Position numbers and translations under genes: made by a program. A stretch of DNA of 64,000 nt from Chryseobacterium sp. (GTDB lineage Bacteria; Bacteroidota; Bacteroidia; Flavobacteriales; Weeksellaceae): contig JAPUEB010000044.1 of assembly GCA_027492795.1 (NCBI GenBank), positions 79,924 to 143,923 on the forward strand. Reading direction: 5' to 3'. Of the stretch, positions 10,379 through 31,562 are shown piece by piece; within the stretch, counting starts at the first letter, position 1; every line of letters begins with the position of its first letter. The notes under the pieces are model-generated. The model was not told where the DNA came from and did no database searches. It saw nothing but the letters and a program-made list of their open reading frames with translations.

Positions 10379-10396
10379 AATTTATTTTTCTTAAAA

Positions 10397-12595
10397 TTAT
10401 CTCGTAAACAACAATTCTCTATACTTCGTCAACGGCCAAAGTTCGTCATCCACCATCATTTCAAGATTGTCACTGGCTTCGCGAATTTTATCGAAACGTG
10501 GTTTTACATCGTTGCAATAGGTTTCTGCCTGTTTTTGTCCGTGCATAGATGAGGCTTTGTCTTTTGCGGCAATAAGTTCATCAACACCATTTTTGATTTG
10601 GTGAACATTGTGAGAAATCGCCTTTATCAACTCCATTTGCTCATTTGCCAAAGACTTGAATTCTTTTTCACCGAAAATTTCTTTTAAGCCTTTCACGTTT
10701 TCAATCAAACGGTTTTGGTAATTTAAAGCAGCCGGAATGATGTGGTTTCTCGCAACATCTGAAAGCACTTTTGCTTCAATATCGATGTTTGCAGAATATT
10801 TCTCGAGTTTTATTTCGTTTCTCGCTTCAAATTCTCTATGGTTATAAATTCCCAATTCTTCGTAAAGGTCAACAAATTTTTTGTCTAATTCGTTCTTTAA
10901 GGCTTCAGGAGTGGTTTTCAAGTTATTTAGTCCGCGTTTTTTGGCTTCTTTTGCCCAATCTTCGGAATAACCGTCGCCTTCAAACAAAATCGTTTTACAA
11001 TCCTTAATATATTCCCTCAAAACATTGAAAATCGCTTCGTCTTTTTTCAGATTTTTCTTTTCAATTAAAGCATCCACTTCTTTTTTGAAAACTTTCAATT
11101 GCTTCGCAACCATCGCATTCAACGCAGTCATCGGTTCAGCGCAGTTTGCAGACGAACCCACCGCACGGAATTCAAACTTATTTCCGGTGAATGCAAAAGG
11201 AGAAGTTCTGTTTCTATCCGTATTATCCAATAAAATTTCTGGAATTTTTCCAACAACATTCAACTTCAATTCGGTTTTTTCTTCCGGAGAAAGTTTTCCG
11301 TCGGTTACTTTTTCTAATTCTTCCAAAACAGAGAACAACTGACTTCCAATAAACGCAGAAATAATTGCAGGTGGCGCTTCGTTTGCGCCTAATCTGTGGT
11401 CGTTGCTCGCAGAAGCGATACTCGCTCTCAGAAGGTCGGAATAATCGTGAACTGCCTTCAAAGAATTTACAAAAAAGGTCAAAAACTGAAGATTTTTCTT
11501 CGGATTTTTTCCTGGACTTAATAAATTTTCTCCCGTATCTGTCGCCAAAGACCAGTTGTTGTGTTTTCCGCTTCCGTTCACACCTTTGAAAGGTTTTTCG
11601 TGGAATAAAATATGGAAATGGTGTTTGTGCGCAACTCTCGCCATAATGTCCATCAACAAAGAGTTGTGGTCTACTGCAACATTGGTTTCCTCGAACATCG
11701 GAGCCAACTCGAATTGGTTCGGAGCAACTTCGTTGTGACGCGTTGTAACAGGAATTCCCAGTTTCATACACTCGATTTCCAATTCTTTCATAAAATTCAT
11801 CACTCTTGTTGGAATAGAACCAAAATAATGGTCGTCCAACTGCTGTCCTTTCGCCGGAGAATGTCCGAGCAAAGTTCTTCCTGTAAAAATCAGATCAGGA
11901 CGAGATTGGTATAAAGCACTGTCAATTAAGAAATATTCCTGTTCCCAACCCAAAGTTGCGGTAACTTTCGTTACATTTTTATCAAAATAGGCTTTGCAAA
12001 CATCGGTTGCGGCTTCATCAACTGCGCTTAATGCTCTTAACAAAGGTGTTTTGTAATCTAAAGTTTCGCCGGTGTATGAAATAAAAATGGAAGGAATACA
12101 AAGTGTCGTCCCAATGATAAAAGCCGGGGAAGTTGGGTCCCAAGCTGTGTAACCGCGCGCTTCAAACGTATTTCTGATACCGCCATTTGGAAAAGAAGAA
12201 GCATCCGGTTCCTGCTGTATCAACATACTTCCATTAAAACGCTCAATTGCTCTGTCGCTTTCAAAAGGAGTGAAAAAACTGTCGTGTTTTTCGGCTGTAG
12301 AACCTGTTAATGGTTGAAACCAGTGTGTATAATGTGTTGCTCCCTTGGATAAAGCCCAGTCTTTCATTGCTACAGCAATTTGGTCGGCGATGTTTCTCGG
12401 GGTTTTTGTTCCTTTTTTTATGGCATCTTGAATTGATGTAAAAGCCTCTTTCGTGAGATATGCTCTCATCGTTTCTTCTGAAAATACGTTTTCGCAGAAC
12501 AATTCTGAAAGTCTTTTCGGAATTTCTACGGCGTTATCCTTTCTGTAATTTCTGAAAGGCAGTTCCGCCAATGCTTTAAATCTTAATGTTGACAT
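10397..12595 (-). CDS. glnN: Type III glutamine synthetase
   Basis: 732 residues, the size of GSIII (GSI is about 450). It makes glutamine from glutamate, ammonia and ATP. Seen in the sequence: THYTHWFQPLTG near the start, NEVAPNQFELAPMFEETN, and HEKPFKGVNGSGKHNNWS with its metal and ATP ligands, plus RTSPFAFTGNKFEFRAVG. GSIII is the common ammonium-assimilating enzyme in Bacteroidetes. It is monocistronic, with its own promoter (12616-12644) and terminator. No PII gene or ammonium transporter is adjacent. Confidence 0.96.
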   Translation of the reverse strand: MSTLRFKALAELPFRNYRKDNAVEIPKRLSELFCENVFSEETMRAYLTKEAFTSIQDAIKKGTKTPRNIADQIAVAMKDWALSKGATHYTHWFQPLTGSTAEKHDSFFTPFESDRAIERFNGSMLIQQEPDASSFPNGGIRNTFEARGYTAWDPTSPAFIIGTTLCIPSIFISYTGETLDYKTPLLRALSAVDEAATDVCKAYFDKNVTKVTATLGWEQEYFLIDSALYQSRPDLIFTGRTLLGHSPAKGQQLDDHYFGSIPTRVMNFMKELEIECMKLGIPVTTRHNEVAPNQFELAPMFEETNVAVDHNSLLMDIMARVAHKHHFHILFHEKPFKGVNGSGKHNNWSLATDTGENLLSPGKNPKKNLQFLTFFVNSLKAVHDYSDLLRASIASASNDHRLGANEAPPAIISAFIGSQLFSVLEELEKVTDGKLSPEEKTELKLNVVGKIPEILLDNTDRNRTSPFAFTGNKFEFRAVGSSANCAEPMTALNAMVAKQLKVFKKEVDALIEKKNLKKDEAIFNVLREYIKDCKTILFEGDGYSEDWAKEAKKRGLNNLKTTPEALKNELDKKFVDLYEELGIYNHREFEARNEIKLEKYSANIDIEAKVLSDVARNHIIPAALNYQNRLIENVKGLKEIFGEKEFKSLANEQMELIKAISHNVHQIKNGVDELIAAKDKASSMHGQKQAETYCNDVKPRFDKIREASDNLEMMVDDELWPLTKYRELLFTR

Positions 12596-12615
12596 TTTTG
12601 TTGATTTTAATGGTG

Positions 12616-12644
12616 CAAATTTAGATAAAAAATTAAACCAACAA
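12616..12644 (-). promoter_or_regulatory. Promoter of the glutamine synthetase gene
   Basis: On the minus strand TTG (12642-12644), an 18-bp spacer, then TAAATTTG (12616-12623), a full match to TTG-N17-23-TAnnTTTG. The ATG is 20 bp downstream. Confidence 0.7.
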
Positions 12645-12878
12645 TAAAAAACTTGAAAAAATTAGGGGTATATTGATAAAAAACCGAATTTTCAAATAAT
12701 TTATACAAATTTTAAAGGGGTAACTCGAAAATATTTCGTTTATATATCGGTTTTTGATTTGTAAACTAATTTCAATATCGTGTAACATATATATAAGGTG
12801 TTGAATTTACATTTGCGGAAAATTTTATTTGGAATACAAAAGACATCAAGTTATGTTAAATGTTTATAATTCAAAAAA

Positions 12879-12944
12879 TCTGTGCACATCTGTGCAAATC
12901 CGTGAGAGAACATCACCTCACAGATTTACACAGATCATCACAGA
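12879..12944. repeat. 28-nt inverted repeat in the glnN-FAD oxidoreductase gap
   Basis: Left arm 12879-12906 and right arm 12917-12944 are complementary with four mismatches, around a 10-nt loop. Each arm has a repeated TCTGTG(N)ATCTGTG pattern. The remainder of the 430-bp gap (12596-13025) holds the glutamine synthetase promoter and no open frame I can support. Confidence 0.7.
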
Positions 12945-13025
12945 ATAATGCCTTAGAGTTTTTACGCAAAATATAATGTAATCATTCTTAAAAAAAGTAA
13001 GTGCTTTTTTGAAAATATAAAAACT

Positions 13026-14231
13026 ATGAAACTAAAAACATCCGAACCTTTTTGGCTCGTAAAAAACGGCATCATCAACAGTTATCCGTCGTTACGGGAA
13101 AATATTGAAACGGAAATTCTCATCGTTGGTGGTGGAATTACGGGAAGTTTAATTGCGCATCAATGCATGAGAGACGGACACAAAACCGTCCTCATTGACC
13201 GGCGCGAAGTCTGCAACGGAAGTACTTCTGCTACAACTTCGATGCTGCAATATGAAATAGATGTTCCGCTTTATGAACTCACCGAGCTCATTGGAAAAGA
13301 AGGTGCGGAAAAAAGTTATTGGGCGTGTTACAATTCGATTGATGATTTGGGAAAAGTAGCAAAAGAAGTAAAATCCAATTGTGGTTTCAAGAAAAAACAA
13401 TCGCTGTATTTTGCTGCTTTGAAAAAAGATTTGGATTGGCTGAAAAAAGAATATGAAACGAGAAAATCTGCTAAATTTCCTGTAAAATGGTTGGAACCGG
13501 AAGAGATTGAAAAAAAGTTTAAAATCAAAAAATCTTTTGGCGGAATTTTGTCGGAACAAGGCGGAAGCATTGATGCATTTCAGTTGGCGCACGATATTTT
13601 AAAGTTCAACCATAAAAAAGGACTGCAAATTTTTGATAAAACCGACATCAAAAAAGTAGATTATAAAAAATCCGGCGTTACCGTCACAACCGAATACGGA
13701 AACACAATAAAAGCAAAAAAAATCATCTACTGTAATGGTTTTGAAAGCACCGAAATCATCAAAGACAATTTTGTAGAACTACTTTCCACGTATGCAATTG
13801 TTGGCGAAGTTTCAGAGGACGACCAAGCGCATTTAAACGATTTATTGGTTTGGAATACGGCGGAACCTTACATTTATTTAAGAACAACCGACGACAACCG
13901 CGTTCTTATTGGCGGCGAAGACGAAGATTTTGTTGATGCCGAAAAACGCGACGCTCTATTGAATGAAAAAGCCAAAAAACTTCAAAAAACCTTGAAAAAA
14001 TACTTACCCGATTACGATTTTCGCATCGATTTTTCTTGGGCAGGAACTTTCGGTGAAACCAAAGACGGATTACCTTACATCGGCGAACATCCGAATTTTC
14101 CAAGCACATATTTTGTCTTAGGTTTTGGTGGAAACGGCATCACTTTTTCCGTTATCGGAATGGAAATGGTTTCTAAATTTTTGAAAAAGGGAAAACACGA
14201 GTTGGAGGAGTATTTTAGATTTCGCAGATGA
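13026..14231 (+). CDS. FAD-dependent oxidoreductase, DAO (glycine/D-amino-acid oxidase) family
   Basis: 401 residues. A Rossmann motif ILIVGGGITGSLIAHQ with the following VLIDRREVCNGSTSATTSML is the standard DAO FAD site (about residues 30-75). The C-terminal FAD segment DGLPYIGEHPNFPSTYFVLGFGGNGI is also present. Substrate cannot be read from sequence; relatives oxidise amino acids, sarcosine or glycerol-3-phosphate. It stands alone between repeat-rich gaps. Confidence 0.88.
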   Translation: MKLKTSEPFWLVKNGIINSYPSLRENIETEILIVGGGITGSLIAHQCMRDGHKTVLIDRREVCNGSTSATTSMLQYEIDVPLYELTELIGKEGAEKSYWACYNSIDDLGKVAKEVKSNCGFKKKQSLYFAALKKDLDWLKKEYETRKSAKFPVKWLEPEEIEKKFKIKKSFGGILSEQGGSIDAFQLAHDILKFNHKKGLQIFDKTDIKKVDYKKSGVTVTTEYGNTIKAKKIIYCNGFESTEIIKDNFVELLSTYAIVGEVSEDDQAHLNDLLVWNTAEPYIYLRTTDDNRVLIGGEDEDFVDAEKRDALLNEKAKKLQKTLKKYLPDYDFRIDFSWAGTFGETKDGLPYIGEHPNFPSTYFVLGFGGNGITFSVIGMEMVSKFLKKGKHELEEYFRFRR

Positions 14232-14237
14232 TATTTT

Positions 14238-14350
14238 GCCACAAATGCACGAATTTTTCTTTTAATTTTAAAATAAATTTTTTCAGCTGAAAAATTGATT
14301 AATCGAGATCTCATTATTAATTTTCTGTAAAATATTCGTGCATTCGTGGC
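14238..14350. repeat. Inverted CACGAATGCACGAAT-type repeat, copy 1
   Basis: Arms GCCACAAATGCACGAAT (14238-14254) and ATTCGTGCATTCGTGGC (14334-14350), one mismatch. The same motif recurs at 20628-20691 and 50933-50976, always between genes. Confidence 0.75.
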
Positions 14351-14379
14351 AACCAAAACTATATTAATTAAAAAAATCG

Positions 14380-14387
14380 TAATTTTG
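14380..14387 (+). promoter_or_regulatory. Bacteroidetes-type -7 element
   Basis: TAATTTTG matches TAnnTTTG and lies 43 bp before the ATG at 14430. The -33 side is not clear. Confidence 0.4.
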
Positions 14388-14429
14388 TGCGTCATTAATT
14401 ATAAATTTACAAAATACTATACATAATTT

Positions 14430-16103
14430 ATGGCAACAAACTTACGAGCACGCGAAACAACAGAGGCCATAGAAAGGCTTTACGTAACCATGCGACACCT
14501 CTTCTACAGAGGTTTTTTCAAACCTGGAGGTGTTTCCGGCGAATCTATCCGAAATCTTTTAATGACTATTTCCCCCGAAATTTACGGGTCCATGAACGTT
14601 TCCAACAAAGTGGAACTCGACGGACTTTTGTATGTTTTGGACAGGCTTCCGGAAGGAATTGAGGAAACCGCTTTTGTGCATCTTACGTCAGATGAAGGTT
14701 TTGAAAAAGGCAGTTTTGAAGTTATTGTTCCAAAAAAACGCCGCAGAAATTGCTACAGAATCGATGAACACCAAATGAACATCGAGGTTTTGCTCGGTCG
14801 TTCCGAAATTTACGATATTCTTACCCACCTCACTTTTCTTTACATCGAAGCCGATAAAATTCGTGAGTTGGGCTACAGAAAAGATGAAGATTACAAACCT
14901 TCAAGAACTTGGAAAATTATTGAAGAAGTAGCGAAAGGCGAGAAAAAAATGAGCCGTAAAGAGAAAGAAGTCGCGCTTATTCACCTTTCATCATTGCTTG
15001 GAAGAACGTTTGACGAAGTTTTGAACGCTTACAACAATTTCGGCGACGATAAAAATCCGGACCGACTTTTCAAAATTATTTACCATCTTGGAAAAATAAG
15101 TCTGGACGATTTAAAAGGTGTTCGTGAAAGGGAAATTTTCTTTTCTGCGATTCTTCGTGAGAGAGTTGGACACCACTTTTTTGGTGAAAAATGGGCGAAT
15201 AAAGTGAAAGAAGTTTTGGCAAGTAATCAACTGCAAATGCGACCGTTGCACATTATTTCCGCAAATATGCATTCTGTAAAAAATATGCTTTTCGGGAACG
15301 ATGCTGTTGGAAAAAAAGCCACGAAAGAAGTAGATTATTCACTTTACGAAGAAATCAGCAACAAAAAAGCGCTGCAGGAAAAAGTACTTTCTTACTCCGA
15401 AAAACAGGGCTTAATTTACATTGATGACGACAGCGGAAGCAATATCGACGTTCAGATTATTGATTTAAGCAAAATTAATTTAAAAAACACGCCTTTTTCC
15501 AGCGCAAAATTTTCTGGAGACGATGTGATTTTGGTTTTCGATTACGCTTTTGGAGAACAGGCTTACGAAGTGATGGATGAATTGCTTCGTCCTTATGAAT
15601 ACAATCAGGAAGTTTATACGATGCACGTGAAATCCGTTTCCATTATGGGAAAAGCGGGAATTTTAACCGGCGAAAAAGGCGACATCATGATTCCAACTTC
15701 CCATATTTTTGAAGGAACAGCCGACAATTACGTTTTTGAAAACGCCTTGAAACTGGATGATTTTCAGGATGATGAGATTAAGGCTTATGAAGGTTCTATG
15801 GTTACCGTTTTGGGAACTTCGCTTCAAAACAAGGACATTCTTTCCTATTTTATGAACACGACTTGGAAAGCAGTTGGTCTTGAAATGGAAGGTGCGCATT
15901 ACCAAAAAGCAATTCAGGTTGCCTCGAAAATCCGCCACCATATTTCTCCGGATTTATTTGTTTGTTATGCGTATTACGCTTCGGATAATCCATTGGAAAC
16001 CGGCTCTACGCTTTCATCCGGCGGACTTGGATTAACGGGTGTGAAACCAACTTATATGATTACAGGAAAAATTATTGAGAAAATTTTGGAATCTTCAAAA
16101 TAA
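14430..16103 (+). CDS. Conserved Bacteroidetes protein with nucleoside-phosphorylase-like C-terminus, function unknown
   Basis: 557 residues, no signal peptide, cytosolic. The N-terminal half (about 1-280) is mainly helical and matches nothing I can name. From about 370 the sequence resembles the nucleoside phosphorylase/AMP-nucleosidase fold: SVSIMGKAGILTGEKGDIMIPTSH, then TWKAVGLEMEGAHYQKAI (about 476-494), which recalls the EMEGA(A/H) ribose-binding motif, and a late GSTLSSGGLGLTGVKP. I believe this is one of the DUF-numbered Bacteroidetes families, but no enzyme activity is established from what I can see. A hydrolase or phosphorylase on purine nucleosides or nucleotides is an inference. 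Confidence 0.75.
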   Translation: MATNLRARETTEAIERLYVTMRHLFYRGFFKPGGVSGESIRNLLMTISPEIYGSMNVSNKVELDGLLYVLDRLPEGIEETAFVHLTSDEGFEKGSFEVIVPKKRRRNCYRIDEHQMNIEVLLGRSEIYDILTHLTFLYIEADKIRELGYRKDEDYKPSRTWKIIEEVAKGEKKMSRKEKEVALIHLSSLLGRTFDEVLNAYNNFGDDKNPDRLFKIIYHLGKISLDDLKGVREREIFFSAILRERVGHHFFGEKWANKVKEVLASNQLQMRPLHIISANMHSVKNMLFGNDAVGKKATKEVDYSLYEEISNKKALQEKVLSYSEKQGLIYIDDDSGSNIDVQIIDLSKINLKNTPFSSAKFSGDDVILVFDYAFGEQAYEVMDELLRPYEYNQEVYTMHVKSVSIMGKAGILTGEKGDIMIPTSHIFEGTADNYVFENALKLDDFQDDEIKAYEGSMVTVLGTSLQNKDILSYFMNTTWKAVGLEMEGAHYQKAIQVASKIRHHISPDLFVCYAYYASDNPLETGSTLSSGGLGLTGVKPTYMITGKIIEKILESSK

Positions 16104-16165
16104 GGGAACACAGAGAACACGGAGGTTTTCTTTAATTATTTTGCGATTGATTGTACATAATTATA

Positions 16166-16258
16166 GCGAAAATCAATTTCTTTTCCCCAACCCTAAAGGG
16201 AGGAAATTGATTTTCTTCGCTCCCTTTAGGGTCGGGGAAAACGAAGAAAATTAGTTTC
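16166..16258. repeat. Tripartite inverted repeat, copy 1
   Basis: Order arm A (16166-16180), loop L (16181-16202), arm A' (16203-16219), loop L' (16220-16241), arm A'' (16242-16258). A' is the complement of both A and A''. L and L' are complements of each other (CCCTAAAGGGAG and CTCCCTTTAGGG cores). Other copies are at 17808-17899, 43421-43590 and 62801-62913. Confidence 0.85.
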
Positions 16259-16327
16259 CGATAAATTTCATTATAAAAATGCTAAAACTTTGTGAAATAA
16301 ATAAAAGTCATCCGAAAAGTGATGGCT

Positions 16328-16858
16328 TTATTTTTTTAGGTCTTTTGAGGCAAGTTCATTCCATTTTCCATTGAAATGTTTGTATAAAATCACTCGTTCA
16401 ACAAGGAAGTTTTCTTCAAAAGTTTTGTTCTGGTATTCTTCCCACGCTTTTTCAAAATTTTCAAAAGTCAAATCACGGTATGCAACAGTAAGATGTGGAT
16501 TGAAGTTGGAAATGTACTTGAAAATATTCATCGTTGCATCAAATTTTTTGTAAAGTTGCTTCAATTCATTCTTATTTTGAGGTTCTATAAAAATAACCGG
16601 ATTTTTCTTATTGGGAAAACACTCAAAATTATTGAGTTGAATTTCAAATGGAGAAACATCCAATTCAGTTTTAAAGAAATGACCAACAACTTCGCTTTCG
16701 TTCTTTTCATCGTGTGCAAAAGGTGGAATTATCGTAATGTGCGGAAAATTTCGGTACGCTTTCGAAGACTGAAAACGGTCTGCAAAATCTTTTTGAATGT
16801 AGCGTATTTTGTTGCTCAATTCTTCATGTGGAATGACTGCGATGAAATATAGACTCAT
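16328..16858 (-). CDS. 2H phosphoesterase (2'-5' RNA ligase-like) protein
   Basis: 176 residues from the ATG at 16858. Two HxT-type motifs, HITIIPPF near residue 40 and HLTVAY near 122, are the paired catalytic signatures of the 2H superfamily, which acts on cyclic phosphates of RNA or small nucleotides. The substrate is unknown. A TTG six codons upstream is in frame, but it lies inside the terminator hairpin of the preceding metallopeptidase gene, so the ATG is preferred. Confidence 0.85.
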   Translation of the reverse strand: MSLYFIAVIPHEELSNKIRYIQKDFADRFQSSKAYRNFPHITIIPPFAHDEKNESEVVGHFFKTELDVSPFEIQLNNFECFPNKKNPVIFIEPQNKNELKQLYKKFDATMNIFKYISNFNPHLTVAYRDLTFENFEKAWEEYQNKTFEENFLVERVILYKHFNGKWNELASKDLKK

Positions 16859-16860
16859 AA

Positions 16861-16894
16861 AAAAATTCCTACTCAAAGTTAAGCAGGAATTTTT
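16861..16894 (-). terminator. Terminator of the zinc metallopeptidase gene, abutting the 2H gene start
   Basis: Arms AAAAATTCCT (16861-16870) and AGGAATTTTT (16885-16894) around a 14-nt loop. The hairpin ends two bases before the ATG of the 2H phosphoesterase gene at 16858. Confidence 0.7.
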
Positions 16895-16922
16895 AATTTT
16901 TTTGAATTGAAAAAGAGAAATT

Positions 16923-22518: not shown

Positions 22519-23538
22519 TTATTTCTTTACAGAATTGGGCTGCTCTTTCAGTGAATCTTTGAAAAAATCTGCAAAAACGGGCTGCATATTTGGGAAACCT
22601 TTGGCTTTCCAGAAATCGAAATGATAGAAGCTTTTTGAAGGATCAAGCTTTATTCTCGGTAATCTGTCTTCATTCGCAAAAGAGATTTCTGTTGGGAAAA
22701 AGTTGGCGTATTTTATAAACTGGCTGTATTGCGGTTCAGATTTATGTTTCACTTTGAAATGTACATCCTCGTTAAACTCGGTAAAATCTCTTAAATGAAT
22801 CGAACCTTTATTAAAATGAATGAGATTGAGGTACACAAAATCGTAAAAAGAATACCCGAAAAGATTAAGAGGTTTATCCTGTAAAACGGCAGCATTGTAC
22901 TGCATTTTGCTTGTGGTAGCGTCTTCTAACTCTTTGTATTTCTTATTTTGTGATTTGTATTCGTTCATCAAACCTGCATTTCTTAAATCCGGAAGTTGCA
23001 GGAAACTATCGTAAACCATCGATGCTACTTTTTTTCGGTCTTGACTTTCCGTTGTTTTTGTAAAAGCGCGGTATTGCTCTATTTTCATGCTTCGCAGTTT
23101 TTTGGAATCATTATCGAAAACATAGGTTGCGATTCCATCTGCATATACATTCAGTTGCTTATTGACGGTTAAATACACATTAAAATTCCCACGAACCAGA
23201 ACGTATTTAGCTTTATTGTTGCTTTTTACGATTACGGTTTCAATTTCGTTAACTCGGTCATTCAATTTTATGATTTCGGAGTTTAGGTCATCCTTTTTTA
23301 GATTTCCAATATTGTAGCCATCATAAATGAGAGTATATTGCTCCTGAATTGGCATCAATTCTGACTTTTGAATTTTCCCTTCGATATCCGAACTCGTCAA
23401 AATATCTCCTGAACTGTTGAAAACCATCACTTTTGAAAGCGGATCGCCGGTTTTGGAAGATAGGAATTGGATTGTTTGGGCAAAAGTGAATACTCCAACT
23501 AAAAAACAGAGAATAGTAGCAAAGAGTTTTGTTTTCAT
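22519..23538 (-). CDS. Secreted protein with CarboxypepD_reg-like N-terminus, function unknown
   Basis: 339 residues with a Sec signal peptide (MKTKLFATILCFLVGVFTFA). Residues 22-90 (IQFLSSKTGDPLSKVMVFNSSG and following) resemble the carboxypeptidase-regulatory-like beta domain often found on Bacteroidetes outer-membrane proteins. The rest has no motif I can name. It lies downstream of the HlyD gene on the same strand, with a weak terminator-like hairpin between them at 23581-23612, so membership of the export operon is doubtful. Confidence 0.7.
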   Translation of the reverse strand: MKTKLFATILCFLVGVFTFAQTIQFLSSKTGDPLSKVMVFNSSGDILTSSDIEGKIQKSELMPIQEQYTLIYDGYNIGNLKKDDLNSEIIKLNDRVNEIETVIVKSNNKAKYVLVRGNFNVYLTVNKQLNVYADGIATYVFDNDSKKLRSMKIEQYRAFTKTTESQDRKKVASMVYDSFLQLPDLRNAGLMNEYKSQNKKYKELEDATTSKMQYNAAVLQDKPLNLFGYSFYDFVYLNLIHFNKGSIHLRDFTEFNEDVHFKVKHKSEPQYSQFIKYANFFPTEISFANEDRLPRIKLDPSKSFYHFDFWKAKGFPNMQPVFADFFKDSLKEQPNSVKK

Positions 23539-23580
23539 GAAAAGAATTTTATTAATCAGTCTGTAGATTCTGGGTATTGT

Positions 23581-23612
23581 TACAAAAAAAAACAGCTGAA
23601 ATCGACCGGTTT
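23581..23612 (-). terminator. Probable terminator after the HlyD gene
   Basis: Imperfect hairpin read on the minus strand (AAAC/GTTT outer stem) followed by nine T. Its loop resembles the actF terminator at 31563-31594. Confidence 0.5.
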
Positions 23613-23623
23613 TTTAATCTAAA

Positions 23624-24925
23624 CTACTGATATCCCAATAATTTTCTGAATTGATAAAAAAATCTTTCAATGAGTCGTAAATCTTCCGTCACGATTTCCG
23701 CATTTCCTTTCAGTTCTTTATCAAATGGGAGGTTTTTATTGTAGGAGGTTTTTAAGCCTTTCGGTAAAACAATGTCCACATAATAATTGCCTTTGTCGTC
23801 AGGAGTTAGTGCTACATTTTGCACTTTGCCTTCCACGATTCCAAACTCCTGAAAACGATAATTGTCTAGTTTTATAAGCACTTTTTGCCCAGTTTTCACT
23901 TTTCCAGAATTGGTGGAAGGTATACTCATTCTTCCTACGATAGCTTCCTTATTTGAAGGCAAGATAGAAAGCATAACATCTCCCGCTTTCACAAATTGAT
24001 TTTCTCCCCAAAATCTTTGAAAACTTGCAATACCTGTTGTAGAAGAAGTGAGCAAAAAGTTTTGCTCCCATTGCCTTAAAGATTTTCTTAATTGCTCGAA
24101 GAGTTGCAATGTTTGGGATGAAAAATTGATTTTATCTTTTTGCGTATTAATTGCTACGCCGCTTTTTGTTTTATTCAAATTACCAATTCCTTCCTCCATT
24201 TGCGATAGGGAAATATTGATGTTTTTTAAGTTTTGTTCTGCTTGAATGTGTTTTATCCTTTCATTTTCCAATTCAAGTTTGGAAATAACTCCCTGATTGT
24301 ATAAAGTTTGTGTTCGGTTATAATTTTCTCTTGACAATTCAAACTTTGCGCGCTCCAGTTGAAGTTGTTGTTTTGTGGTGGCAATTCTGCTCCTTGTTTC
24401 AGAGATACTCTGTTCTGCTGCAACGTTTTCTGGAGCGTAAGGTTGTAAACGGGTAAAAAGTTTTTCATCTTGAAATGCTTTTGCAAAACCGTTATAGTCG
24501 TCTTGAAGCTCACCCAACTTCAATTTTGAAGTTTCATGTATGGGAAAACTGAAAATTTGATTTGGAGCAATAGAATCTACAATCTTCTTAAGTTTCAAAA
24601 CATCTTTATAATCAGCGGAAGACTGCAAAACCATTAAAAGCTCACCATTTTTCACTAATTGATGGTCTTTAATAAAAATTTTCTCAATTTTAGAATTCGT
24701 TCTTGCCTCCAGTTTTTCGGGCGGATTTTGAGAAGTTACGATGATTTCTGCCGGGACAAATTCGGGATATTTGATGAAGTAGCTCATTAGTAGAACCATC
24801 AATAAAGTTACGAAAATAATGGAATTTCCCCAACGAATCATCCAATGTGGAGGACGTGTGAGAATATCCTGAACGCCTTCGCTGCGAAGTTCTATATTGT
24901 CTAATATGTCGTTTTTAGTTTCCAA
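23624..24925 (-). CDS. HlyD-family membrane fusion protein of the peptide exporter
   Basis: 433 residues. It has a cytoplasmic N-terminus, one membrane helix (about 35-52), a lipoyl-like half (KLEARTNSKIEKIFIKDHQLVKNGELLMVL), a long coiled-coil hairpin (about 165-280) and a beta-barrel end with GRMSIPSTNSGKVKTGQKVLIKL. These proteins join an inner-membrane peptidase-ABC transporter to an outer-membrane channel. Its start overlaps the ABC transporter stop by 11 bp. No TolC-like gene is in the window. Confidence 0.93.
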   Translation of the reverse strand: METKNDILDNIELRSEGVQDILTRPPHWMIRWGNSIIFVTLLMVLLMSYFIKYPEFVPAEIIVTSQNPPEKLEARTNSKIEKIFIKDHQLVKNGELLMVLQSSADYKDVLKLKKIVDSIAPNQIFSFPIHETSKLKLGELQDDYNGFAKAFQDEKLFTRLQPYAPENVAAEQSISETRSRIATTKQQLQLERAKFELSRENYNRTQTLYNQGVISKLELENERIKHIQAEQNLKNINISLSQMEEGIGNLNKTKSGVAINTQKDKINFSSQTLQLFEQLRKSLRQWEQNFLLTSSTTGIASFQRFWGENQFVKAGDVMLSILPSNKEAIVGRMSIPSTNSGKVKTGQKVLIKLDNYRFQEFGIVEGKVQNVALTPDDKGNYYVDIVLPKGLKTSYNKNLPFDKELKGNAEIVTEDLRLIERFFYQFRKLLGYQ

Positions 24926-27314
24926 GTTCGAGCTGATTTTTTACCAAGCGGTAGTATTCGCCTTTCAATGCTACCAATTCCTGATGGTTTCCTTCTTCCA
25001 CCACTTTTCCCTTATCCAAGACAATGATTTTATCTGCATGTTTTACGGTGGAAAGACGATGGGCGATGACGATAGCTGTTTTTCCTTTGAAGAAATTCTC
25101 CAGATTTTCCATAATCACTTTTTCGTTGTTGGCATCCAAAGAGCTAGTTGCCTCGTCAAAGAAAATGTATTCCGGAGATTTATAGACGGCTCTTGCAATA
25201 AAGAGCCTTTGCTTTTGTCCGCCACTTATCCCTATTCCTTCGTTCCCTATTTTTGTGTTATAGCTTAAAGGAAGTTCTTCTATGAAATTTTTAATGTTGG
25301 CAATTTCTACAGCTTGCCGAAGTTTTTTCTTGTCTATATAGTCTTCACCTACCGCAATATTTTCTGCAATAGTGTCATTAAAAATATATCCTTCCTGCAT
25401 TACAACGCCGCAATGCTCCCTCCAAAATCTTGGTGAAATATTTTTGAGCTTCACTCCTATAATCCTCTCCCCAACCCTTTGCCTCATTATCTTTATTCTT
25501 TTTATTGGAATCGGCGAATCTTCGATTTCCAAAGGAGAGGGAGCTGATTGCGTTCCTATTGTTCTGCTATTAATGTTGTTTTCATTATTTTTTGCAAAGC
25601 CAATTTCTCCTTTTGTAGGCTCGTAGAATTTCATCAAAAGTTTTAGAAGCGTGGTTTTACCACTTCCGCTGGCTCCTACAATCGCCGTGGTTTTTTGGTA
25701 AGAAATGGTGAGGTTTAGGTTTTCAAAAACAAACTGGTCGGAACCGATATAGCGAAATGACACATCTTTTACTTCTATATCTTTTTGCGGGATTTCAGAA
25801 ACATATTGCTCGTCTGTATTTTCTTCGTCTTCTTTGTCATGAATTTCTCCTAATCGTTCCAAAGAAATATTGGCATCTTGAAACTGCTTCACAAAATCAA
25901 TCAGTTGCAAAAGTGGACTGTTTAACTGTCCAATAATGTACTGCACGGAAAGCATCATCCCCAAAGTTAAATTTCCACTCAAAACCAATTTTGCCGAAAG
26001 AAAACTCACCAAAATATCTTTCATTTGGTTGATGAAGTTTCCACCTACGGATTGCCATTGCTCTAAAGAAAGCGACTGTATGCGGATTTTGAAAAGCTTT
26101 ACCTGTAGAAATTCCCAATCCCAACGTTTTTGTTTTTCAGCGTTGTGCATCTTTATTTCCTGCATTCCGTTTACCAGCTCTATCACTTTGCTTTGTTCGG
26201 CAGAAATTTGGGAAAATCTCTTATAGTCGAGTTCCTTTCTTTTTTTCAGGAAAAAGGAAATCCAACCGGCATATAATACGGCGCCAACCAAATAGACTAC
26301 AAACAAACGATAATCATAAAAAAGCAAAATCACACTGTAAATCAACAAATTCACCAGTGAAAACAAGGTGTTCAGCGAAGAATTGGTAAGGAGTTGCTCA
26401 ATACGGTGATGGTCGTTAATGCGCTGCATAATATCTCCGGTCATTCTCGTATCAAAAAAACTGATGGGAAGTTTCATCAACTTAATGAAGAAGTCCGAAA
26501 TTATGGAGATATTTATTCTTGTAGAAAGATGCAGAAGAATCCAACTTCGTATTACCTCAACGCCCATTCTGCCGAGGAAGAGCATCACTTGCGCCAGTAG
26601 AACCAGATAAATAAAATTGAGGTCTTGGTTCTGTATTCCAACATCTACAATGCTTTGGGTAAGGAAAGGAAAAATGAGCGAAAGCAGACTTCCGGCAAGA
26701 AGCCCAATTGCTAATTGCCAAACCAAAGATTTATATTTGAAAAGATATTTGGATAGAAATTTGAAACTGGCTTTGTCCTCACCCCCGCCCTCTCCAAAGG
26801 AGAGGGAGTCCGATTGGGAATAAAAAGCGGGCGTGGTTTCCAAAATTAAAGCGATGCCTTCTTCTGTGGTGGCATCTGCATTTTCCCCTATCCAGTTTTT
26901 GATGAATTCTTGTTGAGAATATTCAATCAAACCATAGGATGGATCGGAAATCCTCACCCTAAATCCCTCTCCAAAGGAGAGGGACTTCGAGCGCGCTCTG
27001 CTTTGCGTTTTTTTGTTACCTTTTATTTCATATACCACCACAAAATGCTGTTTGTTCCAGTGTACAATGCAGGGTAGCGGAACCTCTTCTACAAGGGTAT
27101 TAAAATCGATCTGAACGCCCAACGTTTTGAAGCCCATATTTTCTGCGGCGTCGCTTAAGCCGAGAAGCGAACTCCCCTCTCTTGTGGTTTCGGAGAGGTT
27201 GCGGATTTGTTGCAGGGGAATGGTTTTGCCGTAGAATTTGGAGATAATTCTAAGGCAGGTTGGTCCGCAGTCTTTGGCGTCGGGTTGTTTGTAGAAGGGG
27301 AAATGCTTTAGCAT
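24915..27314 (-). CDS. Peptidase-containing ABC transporter (C39), carrying three in-frame repeat insertions
   Basis: 799 residues. The N-terminal C39 peptidase domain has Cys16 (KDCGPTC), His90 (HFVVVYEI) and Asp124 (ISDPSYG), which cut double-glycine leaders. A six-helix ABC membrane domain follows (about 195-470), then the ATPase: GASGSGKTT (about 546-554), ISGGQKQRL (about 696), a Walker B ending FFDEATSS, and AHRLST. Relatives are about 730 residues. The excess comes from inserts at about 101-120, 166-180 and 572-617, encoded in palindromic DNA (26964-26984, 26788-26806, 25464-25560). The frame is intact throughout. It probably exports the precursor encoded at 30056-30259. Confidence 0.94.
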   Translation of the reverse strand: MLKHFPFYKQPDAKDCGPTCLRIISKFYGKTIPLQQIRNLSETTREGSSLLGLSDAAENMGFKTLGVQIDFNTLVEEVPLPCIVHWNKQHFVVVYEIKGNKKTQSRARSKSLSFGEGFRVRISDPSYGLIEYSQQEFIKNWIGENADATTEEGIALILETTPAFYSQSDSLSFGEGGGEDKASFKFLSKYLFKYKSLVWQLAIGLLAGSLLSLIFPFLTQSIVDVGIQNQDLNFIYLVLLAQVMLFLGRMGVEVIRSWILLHLSTRINISIISDFFIKLMKLPISFFDTRMTGDIMQRINDHHRIEQLLTNSSLNTLFSLVNLLIYSVILLFYDYRLFVVYLVGAVLYAGWISFFLKKRKELDYKRFSQISAEQSKVIELVNGMQEIKMHNAEKQKRWDWEFLQVKLFKIRIQSLSLEQWQSVGGNFINQMKDILVSFLSAKLVLSGNLTLGMMLSVQYIIGQLNSPLLQLIDFVKQFQDANISLERLGEIHDKEDEENTDEQYVSEIPQKDIEVKDVSFRYIGSDQFVFENLNLTISYQKTTAIVGASGSGKTTLLKLLMKFYEPTKGEIGFAKNNENNINSRTIGTQSAPSPLEIEDSPIPIKRIKIMRQRVGERIIGVKLKNISPRFWREHCGVVMQEGYIFNDTIAENIAVGEDYIDKKKLRQAVEIANIKNFIEELPLSYNTKIGNEGIGISGGQKQRLFIARAVYKSPEYIFFDEATSSLDANNEKVIMENLENFFKGKTAIVIAHRLSTVKHADKIIVLDKGKVVEEGNHQELVALKGEYYRLVKNQLELGN
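25464..25560. repeat. In-frame repeat insertion 3, in the nucleotide-binding domain
   Basis: Outer arms CCTCTCC (25464-25470) and GGAGAGG (25554-25560) enclose about 83 bp that includes CCCCAACCCT as in the intergenic repeats. It encodes a roughly 45-residue stretch between the post-Walker-A region and the Q-loop, where the family normally has only a short loop. Confidence 0.7.
26788..26806. repeat. In-frame palindromic insertion 2
   Basis: CCCTCTCC, AAA, GGAGAGGG: a perfect 19-bp palindrome with a 3-nt centre. On the minus strand it encodes SLSFGEGG in the linker between the peptidase and membrane domains. Confidence 0.85.
26964..26984. repeat. In-frame palindromic insertion 1, inside the C39 peptidase domain
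   Basis: Arms TCCCTCTCC and GGAGAGGGA around AAA. It encodes KSLSFGEGF between catalytic His90 and Asp124; the His-Asp spacing is 34 residues where about 17 is usual. Confidence 0.85.
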
Positions 27315-27362
27315 TCGTGAACACCTTTAAAAAATAATAAAATAAAGTGAACAAAAGACTTT

Positions 27363-28880
27363 TTAAGCTTCATTAATTATTTCTTCATCTTCTAAAATAT
27401 CATCAATGAAATAATTGATGTCTTTTCTGTCGTATTTGTCTGGAAATTGATAGCCATTTATCAAAATAATAGGTGTGAAATTTAACTGTTTTTCTGCGTT
27501 TTCTTCTCCAATTTCATAATACGCTTTCAAGTTTTCAGAAGATGTTTGTAGGTGAGGATATAGCTTCTGCAATTTTTCTAATTTACGCTCCTCATACCAA
27601 TATCTTATAAGCTTCAACAAATCACTTGCGTTATTTTTGTAGGTGGCATCAAATAGAGAAATCAAATTTTTGTATTCTTCATGTTCATTTTCAGTAATGT
27701 TGAACCGTATTTGAAGGGATATGCTTTCATTGTGATTTTCAATAATTTTTTCGATAAGGTGATGAGCATCTTTGCAATATCCACAGTAAGGATTAGAAAT
27801 AAGGGTAATATGAATTTTTGCATTTTCATTTCCAAAGAAAAACCCTGCTTTTGGGTCTTTGAAGATTACTTTTTCTTTGTCTAACAATTCTCTTTTAAAG
27901 AGTTCATAATTTCTTTTGAAGCGCAGGTTCTTTATATTTTCTTTTCTGTATTTTTCCTTCTCTTCGATGGTTTTTGAAATATAGTGTATAAGGAACAGTA
28001 CAATTAGAAAAGAAAAAAGTGTAACCAACAATTCTAAAATTGAAAAGTCCTCACGAAAACTGAAATAGGCAATAGCAAACTGCGCCAACAAAATACCAAT
28101 CACCAAACCGCAAACCTTGCAAAAAATTTTTTGGCTTATCTGGTAATAAACAGAATAAATAACGCTGAAGAGAGACAGAGAAGTAATTCCCAAAAACACA
28201 ATGCTCTCTTTTGAAATAAGGAGTGGCAGTATAGATATAGCAATGAAATAAACAAACCCAAAATCTGAAAATTTCATATCGAAAAGCTTGAAATCTTTAG
28301 ACTGAATAATTTTCTTGCAGGCATCCTCCGAAGATTGTTGTTTTGCTCCCATCCCACAGAAACTTTGCAGAACAACCGAATCTGAACCAAATTTTTCTTT
28401 GAAAATTTCATAAAAAAGATAAACTCCCGATAAAGAGAGCATTTGGAATAGGAAGCTCCAAACTTTCCAATTTAGAAAGGTGTTTATAAGAAGAATAGCT
28501 AATGTTGAAAATAAAATAACTAAATAAAGGAGGCTATTGGGTTTTACAGTTTTTTCTACATTCTTTTTCTCAAAAAGAAGGACGAAATCTTTGGCGTTTT
28601 CCTTTAAAGTATCAAAAGAAACCAATTCCTCTTTATCTGTAAAAATTTTTGCTTGGCTACCGTTTCTATGTACAAGCGCAAAATTACCCTTGTAAATGGT
28701 GATAAATTCTTCCGGAAGTTCCTCCCAATATTCTTTCTCCAGTTCATAAGCATCGTTTTTTACGCCCAAGAAATTGAGCGTGTCGCTGAACGCTAATGCA
28801 GAAGAGTAATTGGGGTGGGATTGGAATTGGAATTGGAATTCAGATGAATTAAGATTCAAATTTTCCAGCACGCCATTCAT
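27363..28880 (-). CDS. C39-like/VKOR/DsbA-like membrane disulfide-forming protein
   Basis: 505 residues in three parts. Residues 20-85 (HPNYSSALAFSDTLNFLGVKN through GNFALVHRNG) resemble a C39 peptidase domain lacking the catalytic Cys. Residues 115-300 form a VKOR-type helical membrane domain with Cys175, Cys188 and the CKVC pair at 254/257. Residues 340-500 are a DsbA/thioredoxin domain with NPYCGYC (Cys366/Cys369). VKOR domains pass electrons from a thioredoxin partner to quinone, so this should make disulfides in the periplasm. It overlaps the TlpA-like gene by 4 bp and precedes the ABC transporter by 48 bp. The six-Cys precursor is its likely client. Confidence 0.88.
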   Translation of the reverse strand: MNGVLENLNLNSSEFQFQFQSHPNYSSALAFSDTLNFLGVKNDAYELEKEYWEELPEEFITIYKGNFALVHRNGSQAKIFTDKEELVSFDTLKENAKDFVLLFEKKNVEKTVKPNSLLYLVILFSTLAILLINTFLNWKVWSFLFQMLSLSGVYLFYEIFKEKFGSDSVVLQSFCGMGAKQQSSEDACKKIIQSKDFKLFDMKFSDFGFVYFIAISILPLLISKESIVFLGITSLSLFSVIYSVYYQISQKIFCKVCGLVIGILLAQFAIAYFSFREDFSILELLVTLFSFLIVLFLIHYISKTIEEKEKYRKENIKNLRFKRNYELFKRELLDKEKVIFKDPKAGFFFGNENAKIHITLISNPYCGYCKDAHHLIEKIIENHNESISLQIRFNITENEHEEYKNLISLFDATYKNNASDLLKLIRYWYEERKLEKLQKLYPHLQTSSENLKAYYEIGEENAEKQLNFTPIILINGYQFPDKYDRKDINYFIDDILEDEEIINEA

Positions 28881-29920
28881 TTTTTCATAAGCTTTGTACT
28901 TAAATAATCATCAAGTTTTTCAGGAGAGACGTCCTGTGCTATTATATTGCCATCCGGATCTAATAAGAAATTTGTAGGATATTTTGAAACATTCATTTTA
29001 CGAGAAAAATCGGAATTTTCATCCCAATAATTCTTCCAATTAATATTGAGTTCAACAATTTTTCTTTTCCAATTTGGCAAATCCTTTTCACGATCTATAG
29101 ATATTCCAATTATTTCAAAATTTTTAGTACCATATTTTTCATAAATACTCAGAAACTTCGGCATTTGGTAAATGCATGGCTTACAGTAGCTGAACCAAAA
29201 ATCAAGAAGTACATATTGGTTTTTATTTTTTAAAATTATATCCTCTTTTTTTAATTCCATGTTTTTTAGCACAAATCCATCCCGAAGTGTATTTTGGAAG
29301 TTTCTAATATCATCAATTTTGTTCAAAAAGGCTTTAAAAATAGAAGTGGATTTGATGTTATCGGAAAAAGATGAAAGGGCTTCCTCTTGGTAATGATTAG
29401 GTTTGTTATTGCTAAACCTTTCTATTAAAATCCATAAAGCTACGAAGGATGAAGGGTTTTTCTTTATGTAATTAAGTAAAATATAATCTTCCAATGCATC
29501 ATTTACCTCTGTATTGTCGAATATGGATGTAATGTGTGCGCTCTTAAGCACATTCCTTAATTTTATATATTCATCATTCGTTTTTGAACCTCGTACTCTC
29601 AAAGTGATGCGTGAGTCTTTATTTTGATGATATTCAAGTTCTTGATAGCTGTTTTCCAGAAAAAAACCATCAGAAATGGTATTGTCTGTAACTAACCAAA
29701 AATAGGTGGGATAGTCTATATTTCCTTGAAATTTAAATTTTCCTTCTAAACTTGGTTTTTTACTTATACCATTTTCAATATTGAAAAAATTAAAAATTTT
29801 CGCATTTGGCTGAATAAGCCAAACACTATCAGTTTTAATATTGGTGTTTCCTTGTAGAAAAAACTTTTTTTGCTGAGCATTGATTTGAAAAGATAAAAGA
29901 ATAATAAATAGATATTTCAT
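28877..29920 (-). CDS. TlpA-like periplasmic thiol-disulfide oxidoreductase
   Basis: 347 residues with a short Sec signal (MKYLFIILLSFQINA). The N-terminal half (about 18-120) looks like the DUF4369 domain often attached to Bacteroidetes TlpA/ResA proteins. The thioredoxin domain holds LLDFWFSYCKPCIYQMP (Cys246/Cys249) and a cis-Pro segment SKYPTNFLLDPDG. It could reduce, isomerise or transfer disulfides on the exported peptide. Gene order precursor, TlpA-like, VKOR, ABC, HlyD with an ATGA overlap supports one locus. Confidence 0.88.
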   Translation of the reverse strand: MKYLFIILLSFQINAQQKKFFLQGNTNIKTDSVWLIQPNAKIFNFFNIENGISKKPSLEGKFKFQGNIDYPTYFWLVTDNTISDGFFLENSYQELEYHQNKDSRITLRVRGSKTNDEYIKLRNVLKSAHITSIFDNTEVNDALEDYILLNYIKKNPSSFVALWILIERFSNNKPNHYQEEALSSFSDNIKSTSIFKAFLNKIDDIRNFQNTLRDGFVLKNMELKKEDIILKNKNQYVLLDFWFSYCKPCIYQMPKFLSIYEKYGTKNFEIIGISIDREKDLPNWKRKIVELNINWKNYWDENSDFSRKMNVSKYPTNFLLDPDGNIIAQDVSPEKLDDYLSTKLMKK

Positions 29921-29933
29921 GTATTATAAATTA

Positions 29934-29964
29934 AATACTGTTTCAAAAAAATTGAAACAGTATT
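29934..29964 (-). promoter_or_regulatory. Hairpin between the precursor gene and the maturation genes
   Basis: A perfect 13-bp stem (29934-29946 with 29952-29964) around a 5-nt loop, in the gap between the precursor stop and the TlpA-like start. It has no T run on the minus strand, so it looks more like a stabilising, processing or attenuating hairpin than a full terminator. Confidence 0.6.
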
Positions 29965-30055
29965 ATGTTAAGATTTTTTTTGACTATTAATTTGACAAGA
30001 AAAAATAATAGCTCTTTGGAAAGTGAAATTTTCTAATTACTTTTAACAAAGTTCA

Positions 30056-30259
30056 TTATGCACTTACACAACGTAACCACTTAGGGTCATTATTGATTAT
30101 TTTACAAGAACAGTTGTTCTGTACATTCCCACATGTTTGTCCCGCTTCACCACACGCTCCGCCTCCACATTGTCCATCATCAGGAGGAGCTATAAACTTA
30201 TCTGAACCGCCTTTTAAATTTTTAAATTCCTCTCTCGAAAGTTTCTTTAGATTTTTCAT
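30056..30259 (-). CDS. Double-glycine-leader peptide precursor with six-cysteine core (putative bacteriocin-like peptide)
   Basis: 67 residues from the ATG at 30259. The leader MKNLKKLSREEFKNLKGG ends in Gly-Gly, as in Bacteroidetes precursors cut by C39 peptidase transporters. The 49-residue core is Gly/Asn-rich with cysteines at 31, 36, 43, 50, 52 and 64, an even number fit for three disulfides. An in-frame start 25 codons upstream is rejected because it would bury the leader. A TAGTTTTG box lies 30 bp upstream. Downstream on the same strand are TlpA, VKOR/DsbA, C39-ABC and HlyD genes. No modification enzymes such as LanM or rSAM are near. Activity (antibacterial or signal) is unknown. Confidence 0.82.
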   Translation of the reverse strand: MKNLKKLSREEFKNLKGGSDKFIAPPDDGQCGGGACGEAGQTCGNVQNNCSCKIINNDPKWLRCVSA

Positions 30260-30288
30260 AATAAAATAATTTTGATTGTTAGACTTCT

Positions 30289-30296
30289 CAAAACTA
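30289..30296 (-). promoter_or_regulatory. -7 element for the precursor gene
   Basis: The minus strand reads TAGTTTTG (TAnnTTTG), 30 bp before the precursor ATG. The -33 position holds only weak similarity. Confidence 0.5.
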
Positions 30297-30328
30297 AAAA
30301 TTACTATGTTGTAAATATATAAAACCTT

Positions 30329-30405
30329 ATGCATATTTTATACATTTTATATGCGGATAAATTTACATTTTTTATCTTTGTTGTTATCCTAATGCATATT
30401 ATATG
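30329..30405. promoter_or_regulatory. Repeated TGCATATT motifs in the divergent promoter region (candidate operators)
   Basis: TGCATATT followed by TATA-rich DNA occurs at about 30330-30345 and again at about 30393-30404, on either side of the XRE gene promoter. A GCATAT/ATATGC inverted pair lies in the first copy. Sites for the adjacent XRE regulator are an inference. Confidence 0.4.
30373..30380 (+). promoter_or_regulatory. -7 element for the XRE regulator gene
   Basis: TATCTTTG matches TAnnTTTG and lies 22 bp before the ATG at 30403. Confidence 0.5.
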
Positions 30406-30775
30406 AAAACAAAATTGCAGGAAGTGCGCAACAGAAAAGGCTTATCGCAAGAACAGGTGGCTGAAATGGTGGGTATGACGCAGAGCAACTATAGCAGAAA
30501 AGAAAACGGTTTCACCAAAATGTTTCAACCAGAGTGGGAACTTATTGCAAAAAAAATTAGATGTTTCTTTAGAAGATATTTTTGAAGAAGATACTAAAAC
30601 CGTAATCTATAAAAACAAAGAAGGCAATAATAACTTCAATTTTGGCACCATCAATGTAAATATTCCAGATTTTGTTCTCAACTATATCAATATTCTTCAA
30701 GTTCAGACTGAAAAGCTACAAGCAGAAATTCAACTTTTAAAAGAAGAAAACGCTTCGCTAAAAAACCAAAAATAA
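30403..30775 (+). pseudogene. XRE-family regulator, reading frame broken at an A8 run
   Basis: Frame 1 encodes MKTKLQEVRNRKGLSQEQVAEMVGMTQSNYSRKENG..., a classic HTH_3 domain, but it leaves the family pattern after WELIAKK and stops at 30585. The next frame continues with LDVSLEDIFEEDTKTVIYKN and a C-terminal coiled coil (about 100-120), ending at 30775. The break is at eight A (30549-30556); seven A would give one 123-residue protein. A true mutation, transcript slippage on the A run, or a sequencing error are all possible. It is divergent from the peptide precursor and probably its regulator. A terminator follows at 30802. Confidence 0.8.
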
Positions 30776-30801
30776 TTTTTTACAATCACCATATTAAGTA
30801 C

Positions 30802-30828
30802 AAAAAGCATCCAGCAAGATGCTTTTTG
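30802..30828 (+). terminator. Terminator of the XRE regulator gene
   Basis: Perfect 10-bp stem AAAAAGCATC (30802-30811) with GATGCTTTTT (30818-30827), 6-nt loop, ending in T. Confidence 0.85.
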
Positions 30829-30874
30829 TGTTTAGTGATACTCTTTTTCAATATAATGATATCTTCACAAAAAC

Positions 30875-30922
30875 AAATTATAGCCTCAAAGAGTATAATT
30901 ATACCCTCCGAGGCTATAATTT
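30875..30922. repeat. Inverted repeat with nested palindrome between two terminators
   Basis: Arms AAATTATAGCCTC (30875-30887) and GAGGCTATAATTT (30910-30922) pair perfectly over 13 bp and enclose a smaller TATAATTATA palindrome. Confidence 0.6.
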
Positions 30923-30942
30923 GATACTTTTTGTATAAAAAA

Positions 30943-30980
30943 AGACTCTTTTAGTCTATAATTAATCACTGAAAGAGTCT
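30943..30980 (-). terminator. Terminator of the 160-residue gene downstream of actF
   Basis: Arms AGACTCTTTTAGT (30943-30955) and ACTGAAAGAGTCT (30968-30980), with one mismatch. Followed by a T run on the minus strand. Confidence 0.8.
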
Positions 30981-31002
30981 AAATAAAGTTCAATGCAATT
31001 TG

Positions 31003-31485
31003 CTAAGGTTTTGGCGGTGCATTTTTAGCGGAACGCTTGCTAAAACGCTGGGATAAATCCTCGTAAATTGGTTTTGCTGTCGGGATGCCTTGTCTCGCAG
31101 CCTCTTTTACCGGACCATAGTAGAGCATTGCCGCTACCAATGCCTCGCTTCCGGCAAGCATTACGGTATCTTCCATATCAGAAGCCAACTGTTGCGCAAG
31201 GTTTGCCAATGGATTTAGTTGCGACACAATAGCTTCGTCCTTCAAAAATTCTTCCTTGTTCATATAGGCAGGCGCAAACTCGGCATTGGTATCGAGATAG
31301 CTTTTTACCTTTTGTACTGTAGCAATAGTTTTATCCCCCATTTTGAAAAGAGATTTTCGCTGATCTGCAGTGAGTGCCTGTAAATAAGGTGCAAGTGCAG
31401 ATTTACATTCCTGTAACTTTTGCGTTACTTCCTCCAAAACAGATGAAGGAATTTCTTTGCTGATTTGATTGTTCGTTCCCATCAT
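31003..31485 (-). CDS. Conserved hypothetical protein, 160 residues
   Basis: No signal peptide; mostly helical, with VLEEVTQKLQECKSALAPYLQALTADQRKSLFKMGDKT at the start. I recall similar small proteins in Flavobacteria but no function. It lies between the actF terminator and its own terminator, so it is a separate transcript. M1 and M2 are both possible starts. Confidence 0.7.
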   Translation of the reverse strand: MMGTNNQISKEIPSSVLEEVTQKLQECKSALAPYLQALTADQRKSLFKMGDKTIATVQKVKSYLDTNAEFAPAYMNKEEFLKDEAIVSQLNPLANLAQQLASDMEDTVMLAGSEALVAAMLYYGPVKEAARQGIPTAKPIYEDLSQRFSKRSAKNAPPKP

Positions 31486-31562
31486 TTATAAATTTAATTG
31501 TTAAACAGAGTAAAAATACTGATTATATCTTTCATAAAAAATAGGTAAAGTATACTTTAATA

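Follow-up and report, generated by a model that had tools for sequence, protein, structure and literature searches.

We analysed a 64,000-nt stretch of Chryseobacterium sp. DNA (the window, to whose positions all coordinates refer) around a locus for a Cys-rich peptide, in which five main genes all lie on the minus strand. In order on that strand, they encode a 67-residue peptide precursor (30056..30259), a TlpA-like protein (28877..29920), a VKOR/DsbA fusion protein (27363..28880), a C39 peptidase-ABC exporter (24915..27314) and an HlyD-type membrane fusion protein with a TTG start (23624..24925). A first-pass annotation had given this order and these positions, with a double-glycine (GG) precursor and a six-Cys core of 49 residues, and all were located as it described. 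The overlaps it reported are also there, 4 bp between the TlpA-like and fusion genes (28877-28880) and 11 bp between the exporter and HlyD genes (24915-24925). The layout recurs in relatives, where a fusion protein with a Cys-less C39-like domain accompanies peptides whose Cys counts are nearly always even.

The precursor consists of an 18-residue leader, MKNLKKLSREEFKNLKGG, which ends in KGG and is encoded by 30206..30259 (minus strand), and the core with Cys at positions 13, 18, 25, 32, 34 and 46. The open reading frame (ORF) listing gives it 92 residues, and the 67-residue start was chosen as it aligns with position 1 of the NCBIfam leader model NF047798. The leader scores 30.9 bits over positions 1-18 of the 18 in this model, above the cut-off of 23.5, so the precursor belongs to NF047798. 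It scores 21.8 bits with NF047792 (CCPGW family), below the cut-off of 80, and no Pfam model matches it.

The first-pass annotation knew of no bacteriocin class that matches the core. The core is rare: when 5.8 billion proteins were searched by a word-based method, P0002 was the one further homologue to come up, with 71% identity and all six Cys kept. Both share CGGGACxEAGxxCGNVQNxCSCKIINNxPxWLRCVSA, and the residues right after the GG diverge. The leader type is already catalogued as NF047798 (leader_Chryseo, 'bacteriocin-like protein'), a model that spans the 18-residue leader only, so 'bacteriocin-like' is a naming by the NCBI model. A PDB sequence search with the core gave two matches, the best with an E value of 1.6, and resemblance to a known structure was rejected as not credible.

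The exporter matches Pfam Peptidase_C39 (1.3e-30), ABC_membrane and ABC_tran. It keeps the catalytic motif QPDAKDCGPTC and the His (HFVVVY), and D15, C16, G17 and H90 of its C39 domain are invariant in nine aligned sequences including that of the window. The L065 row was left out of further comparison. The locus thus has what defines a GG-exported peptide, a GG leader and a C39-ABC with the catalytic Cys and His. C39 exporters such as PCAT1 and ComA recognise the leader, cleave after the GG and export the peptide by ATP hydrolysis. The HlyD protein matches HlyD_3 (9.5e-12) and, under the cut-off of that model, TIGR01843 (4.5e-29). None of 82 ABC matches longer than 300 residues has an internal stop.

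The exporter gene also carries three in-frame insertions (26965-26983, 26788-26806 and about 25430-25560, minus strand) with a short hairpin repeat, CCCTCTCCTTTGGAGAGGG followed by a GGGTGAGGA-like stretch, which is degenerate in its third copy. A 15-base core of the repeat occurs 31 times in the genome (6 and 25 by strand) and never in a reversed control. The ABC genes of aligned relatives are free of the insertions, but in G003 (locus L182) all three sites are occupied by repeat-like inserts.

The fusion protein joins a Cys-less C39-like domain (residues 1-108), a VKOR domain (139-278) and a DsbA-like thioredoxin domain (334-499), as delimited by domain scans, alignments and the predicted fold. 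Its redox Cys pairs are the DsbA-like CxxC (C366/C369), the VKOR loop pair (C175/C188) and the VKOR CxxC (C254/C257), and these six are invariant in 48 of 48 aligned relatives. Residues 139-278 of the predicted model align with residues 17-154 of Synechococcus VKOR. With a loop Cys pair and a quinone-site CxxC in a VKOR bundle, the protein has the make-up of a VKOR-type disulfide oxidase. Electrons in VKOR pass from a thioredoxin-like partner to the loop pair, then to the CxxC and to quinone. Public annotations of such fusions read 'vitamin K epoxide reductase family protein' and, on one Parabacteroides plasmid, 'cysteine peptidase family C39'.

The label 'C39-like' given by the first-pass annotation holds up. 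The window protein itself has no Pfam match to Peptidase_C39, but 11 members of the 17-stretch N-terminal alignment match it (best 1.6e-6) and the predicted fold of the N-terminus matches C39 peptidases. Residues 1-112 are free of Cys in all 48 sequences, so the domain lacks the catalytic Cys of a C39 peptidase and is not expected to be active. It is the most conserved part of the fusion, much of it being nearly invariant. Nothing useful came from hhalign of A1 (the alignment of fusion relatives, also used as a search profile) against the C39 domain of the exporter, nor from searching PDB sequences with either the fusion or the alignment of its N-terminus.

The arrangement is widespread in the family of the window. 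In 296 family genomes the fusion was found in 157 at an E value of 1e-10 (139 without a match), the leader in 156 at 0.01 and an orthologue of the ABC gene in 169 at 1e-150, and 14 control genomes had no leader. Fusion and leader occur together in 150, the fusion without the leader in seven (G021, G077, G123, G131, G133, G159 and G310) and the leader without the fusion in six (G015, G017, G129, G148, G200 and G229). Much of this co-occurrence comes from one large genus, g20; outside it the leader is found in 12 of 18 genomes with the fusion, against five among at most 138 others. The ABC orthologue occurs without the fusion in 13 genomes, and in one genome, G021, the fusion is present but no ABC gene passes the threshold set for it.

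Gene neighbourhoods were compared in 54 loci whose sequence extends 2.5 kb or more upstream and 5 kb or more downstream of the fusion, kept from 65 after 11 with short flanks were dropped. An ABC gene lies within 3.5 kb downstream in 50, an HlyD gene within 7 kb in 50 and one or more leader peptides no further than 6 kb away in 45, and all three are present in 42. Hence the co-occurrence of precursor and exporter that the first-pass annotation had proposed to look for in relatives is found, with the VKOR fusion alongside, and the recurring layout rules out both a one-off locus and a chance arrangement. Among the nine loci without a leader peptide, seven were inspected (all except L041 and L066), and in two of them, L022 (11565-11744) and L069 (11581-11733), the place between the fusion and ABC genes is taken by a decayed precursor copy that lacks the GG.

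Searches with A1 reached further, finding the fusion in 28 of 196 genomes sampled from the order, 15 of which belong to the family of the window, and in 13 of 247 sampled from the class, two of which belong to that family. We took 18 wider stretches with 20 fusion copies, 16 stretches being from other families and two further copies being in G082 of the same family. Twelve of the 18 stretches also show an ABC homologue. A Cys is absent from the catalytic motif in 19 of the 20 copies, the N-terminus having been inspected for 19. A pattern search gave 13 GG peptides, one an empty-core artefact; the other 12 have four (three peptides), six (three), eight (four), two (one, with a misplaced cut site) or three Cys (one). 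A plasmid search returned eight records in other Bacteroidota at less than 30% identity.

The Cys counts were then compared over 203 distinct peptides of the fetched loci, collected with a leader pattern that does not require Cys; those cut by contig ends or outside 30-120 residues were dropped. A peptide was called near when it lies within 6 kb and on the same strand as a fusion, the 3-kb loci being placed by genome coordinates, by which L107, L108, L109 and L121 are near a fusion and L129 is not placeable; unlisted fusion copies may adjoin others. The 165 near peptides have six (111), four (50), seven (2), five (1) or one Cys (1). They form 39 similarity clusters with six (22), four (15), seven (1) or one (1) as the commonest count. 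Thus 37 of 39 are even, with a coin-toss probability of 1.4e-9 for at least 37, although some dependence between clusters is possible. Counts vary within two of the small even clusters (6/5/4 and 6/7), so the worst case is 35 of 39.

The peptides without a known fusion nearby behave alike. They number 35 in 14 clusters, 13 of which are even, and three further peptides are not placeable; in all 203, 48 of 51 clusters are even and none of the peptides is free of Cys. Since the counts are even with and without a nearby fusion, the evenness tracks the leader family, in keeping with a single machine that serves peptides in trans. Many single genomes have at least 29 leader matches, with up to 110 first-look candidates, and most of the placeable ones lie away from a listed fusion.

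The genomes with the ABC gene but not the fusion were also searched. Coordinates were available for six of these 13, and there a looser pattern picked up five GG-like ORFs, which have 0-2 Cys; a Cys-rich peptide of the MKNLKKL type was not found within 15-16 kb. G200 and G229, which belong to this group, have one weak leader match each elsewhere in the genome.

A five-Cys group with the same leader type lies on the strand opposite to the fusion in L043 (16176-16349), L047 (3609-3812), L049 (15519-15692), L051 (5798-6001) and L057 (4004-4207). It is of the FCMYxC...CATCSxDFKC type and is the only odd-Cys cluster among the peptides without a same-strand fusion nearby.

Even counts across dissimilar cores fit oxidative folding. 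Alternatively, the Cys residues could be substrates of thioether, methanobactin- or chryseobasin-like or metal-binding chemistry and be kept reduced by the redox proteins. TlpA/ResA-like proteins, one of which is encoded in the window operon, are often reductive. Moreover, a Cys-modifying DUF692 pathway for chryseobasin is described in Chryseobacterium (PMC10214503). However, Pfam and NCBIfam scans of nine window proteins gave no match to modifying-enzyme families, ATP-grasp or glycosyltransferase. VKOR and DsbA domains are oxidative partners, and neither the invariance of their six redox Cys nor the even counts suit this chemistry, which we regard as very improbable.

We consider it probable, with some reserve, that the C39-ABC and HlyD proteins cut and export the precursor, that the VKOR-DsbA fusion oxidises the core and that the dead C39 domain docks the peptide. 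The exporter is predicted to remove the leader after the GG and to secrete the peptide, and the fusion would likely turn the six core Cys into three disulfides. Electrons would pass from the core thiols to C366/C369, then C175/C188, then C254/C257 and finally quinone. The Cys-less C39 domain would hold the peptide beside the oxidase, probably by the conserved leader. This docking role is suggested by the predicted fold, the conservation and a parallel with HlyB only, and the order of the steps is presumed. In related genomes, one or a few such machines may handle many precursors that share the leader but differ greatly in their cores, some of them in trans.

Two observations weigh against this mechanism. 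One is that the peptides away from a known fusion are equally even in Cys, as would be expected if the fusion were a general disulfide oxidase of the periplasm. On that view its place in an exporter operon has no special meaning, the peptides use it like any other secreted protein, and its C39-like domain is an idle remnant. The fusion is also the sole one of three VKOR matches in the window genome to exceed the Pfam cut-off. Against a general oxidase, however, fusion and leader track each other through the family, nearly half of whose genomes have no match to the fusion, and a single genome may have up to five fusion matches, some of which may be fragments. The supposed remnant is, moreover, the part conserved best. 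We therefore hold a general oxidase to be unlikely.

The other is the side of the membrane. A simple hydropathy scan of 25 proteins (five rows of A1 and the 20 more distant copies) shows two hydrophobic segments ahead of the VKOR loop in 24; among the distant copies, one has a single segment and three have extra weak peaks. The first VKOR helix of Synechococcus has a cytosolic N-terminus. Since the second segment aligns with that helix, the prediction is that the C39-like domain lies in the periplasm with the redox centres, out of reach of a leader cut in the cytosol; charge counts favour neither side. The domain may read the precursor before it is cut or bind the core as it emerges, unless the topology differs from the predicted one.

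This placement on the redox side, if the VKOR N-terminus is indeed cytosolic, would suit a domain that binds the mature core or unfolded peptide like the non-catalytic domain of an isomerase, the leader having no part in oxidation. A nearly invariant domain facing dozens of dissimilar core clusters is hard to reconcile with it, and a constant partner such as the leader fits better. Core binding is accordingly doubtful, though somewhat less so than a general oxidase.

Returning to docking by the leader, we tentatively raise leader-guided disulfide formation as a new maturation class, an extension that we find possible rather than probable. The former peptidase would act as a reader that delivers precursors with the right leader to the fused VKOR-DsbA, which would fold dozens of hypervariable even-Cys peptides in Bacteroidia. 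The oxidase would then take the place of the ATP-grasp ligases and lanthionine synthetases of other leader-guided pathways. If true, one operon type would account for the very numerous Cys-rich peptides that Chryseobacterium and its relatives secrete, of which little has been described, and show how their disulfides would be made, and a leader-addressable oxidase could be used to fold designed Cys-rich peptides. The role of catalytically dead C39 domains becomes directly testable.

GG peptides with dedicated thiol oxidases are already known. The sublancin and glycocin loci combine a GG Cys-rich peptide, a C39-type exporter and thiol oxidases of the BdbA/BdbB type, as the window locus does in its own way, and they have separate DsbA/DsbB-like proteins and a glycosyltransferase. 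The window differs by its single VKOR-DsbA protein with a Cys-less C39-like domain, its HlyD and the dozens of core types in the family, and membership was rejected as none of the nine scanned proteins matches a glycosyltransferase. In the Synechococcus VKOR-Trx fusion (4nv5 and others), a thioredoxin-like domain follows the VKOR bundle as it does here, but the window fusion adds the N-terminal C39-like domain, one hydrophobic segment and the setting of a peptide-exporter operon. HlyB has its C39-like domain (3zua, as we take it) inside the ABC exporter, whereas the window has it fused to the oxidase and the exporter keeps an active-looking C39. No published account of the pairing of fusion and peptides was found in open-licence full texts, among the matches listed. 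What is new, as far as seen, is that a C39-VKOR-DsbA fusion with a Cys-less C39 part goes with a large family of peptides with even Cys counts.

In L130 (genome G107, 10333-16912), a GG precursor of another type, starting MKKLEKLEKKKFKKEIMGNVFGG, and a 323-residue ORF lie between fusion and exporter; by family likeness they look like a graspetide-type cassette, which the exporter there may serve too. L130 also has an ABC stub with a stop beside the fusion, and near 16500 its full-length ABC gene changes frame and so falls into two ORFs. The chryseoviridin-type graspetide loci likewise have Chryseobacterium precursors, GG sites and C39 exporters (PMC8939145). Graspetides are crosslinked by ATP-grasp ligases, and membership of the window locus was rejected for want of an ATP-grasp match among the nine proteins scanned.

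The TlpA/ResA-like protein has a hydrophobic N-terminal stretch, a CxxC and Pfam matches to Thioredoxin_8 (8.7e-19) and DUF4369 (4.6e-9). The presence of two thiol-redox proteins had been taken to point to oxidative folding coupled to leader removal and export, but the pair is not general: a same-strand TlpA-like gene lies within 2.5 kb upstream of the fusion in 4 of the 54 loci only, and the protein is thus accessory. General scans of the ORFs in 23624-30259 brought up no recognisable immunity gene, but they included no model-based search aimed at immunity.

The A/U-rich gap between the precursor and TlpA genes (29921..30055, minus strand) holds a 13-pair hairpin, AAUACUGUUUCAA, loop UUUUU and UUGAAACAGUAUU; the gap folds at -23.4 kcal/mol with a z of -3.08 against shuffles. 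The hairpin is a possible terminator or attenuator ahead of the TlpA gene, by which perhaps more precursor than enzyme is made. Curated RNA families gave no match at the gathering score in 23000-31500. Upstream of the precursor, TANNTTTG at 30296 (minus strand) has the form of a promoter box of the Bacteroidetes type, but we claim no promoter there, since the window contains 97 copies of the motif and an upstream TTG box was not found.

A divergent XRE regulator gene is present on the plus strand (30403..30775), as the first-pass annotation said, but it is not intact: Pfam-matched ORFs of 60 and 76 residues are split at a run of eight A (30549-30556). Either the gene is truly broken or the sequence has an error at this point; the homologous ORF in L130 is continuous with 133 residues. 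Divergent XRE-like genes also lie directly upstream of a leader peptide in L007, L009, L015 and L061.
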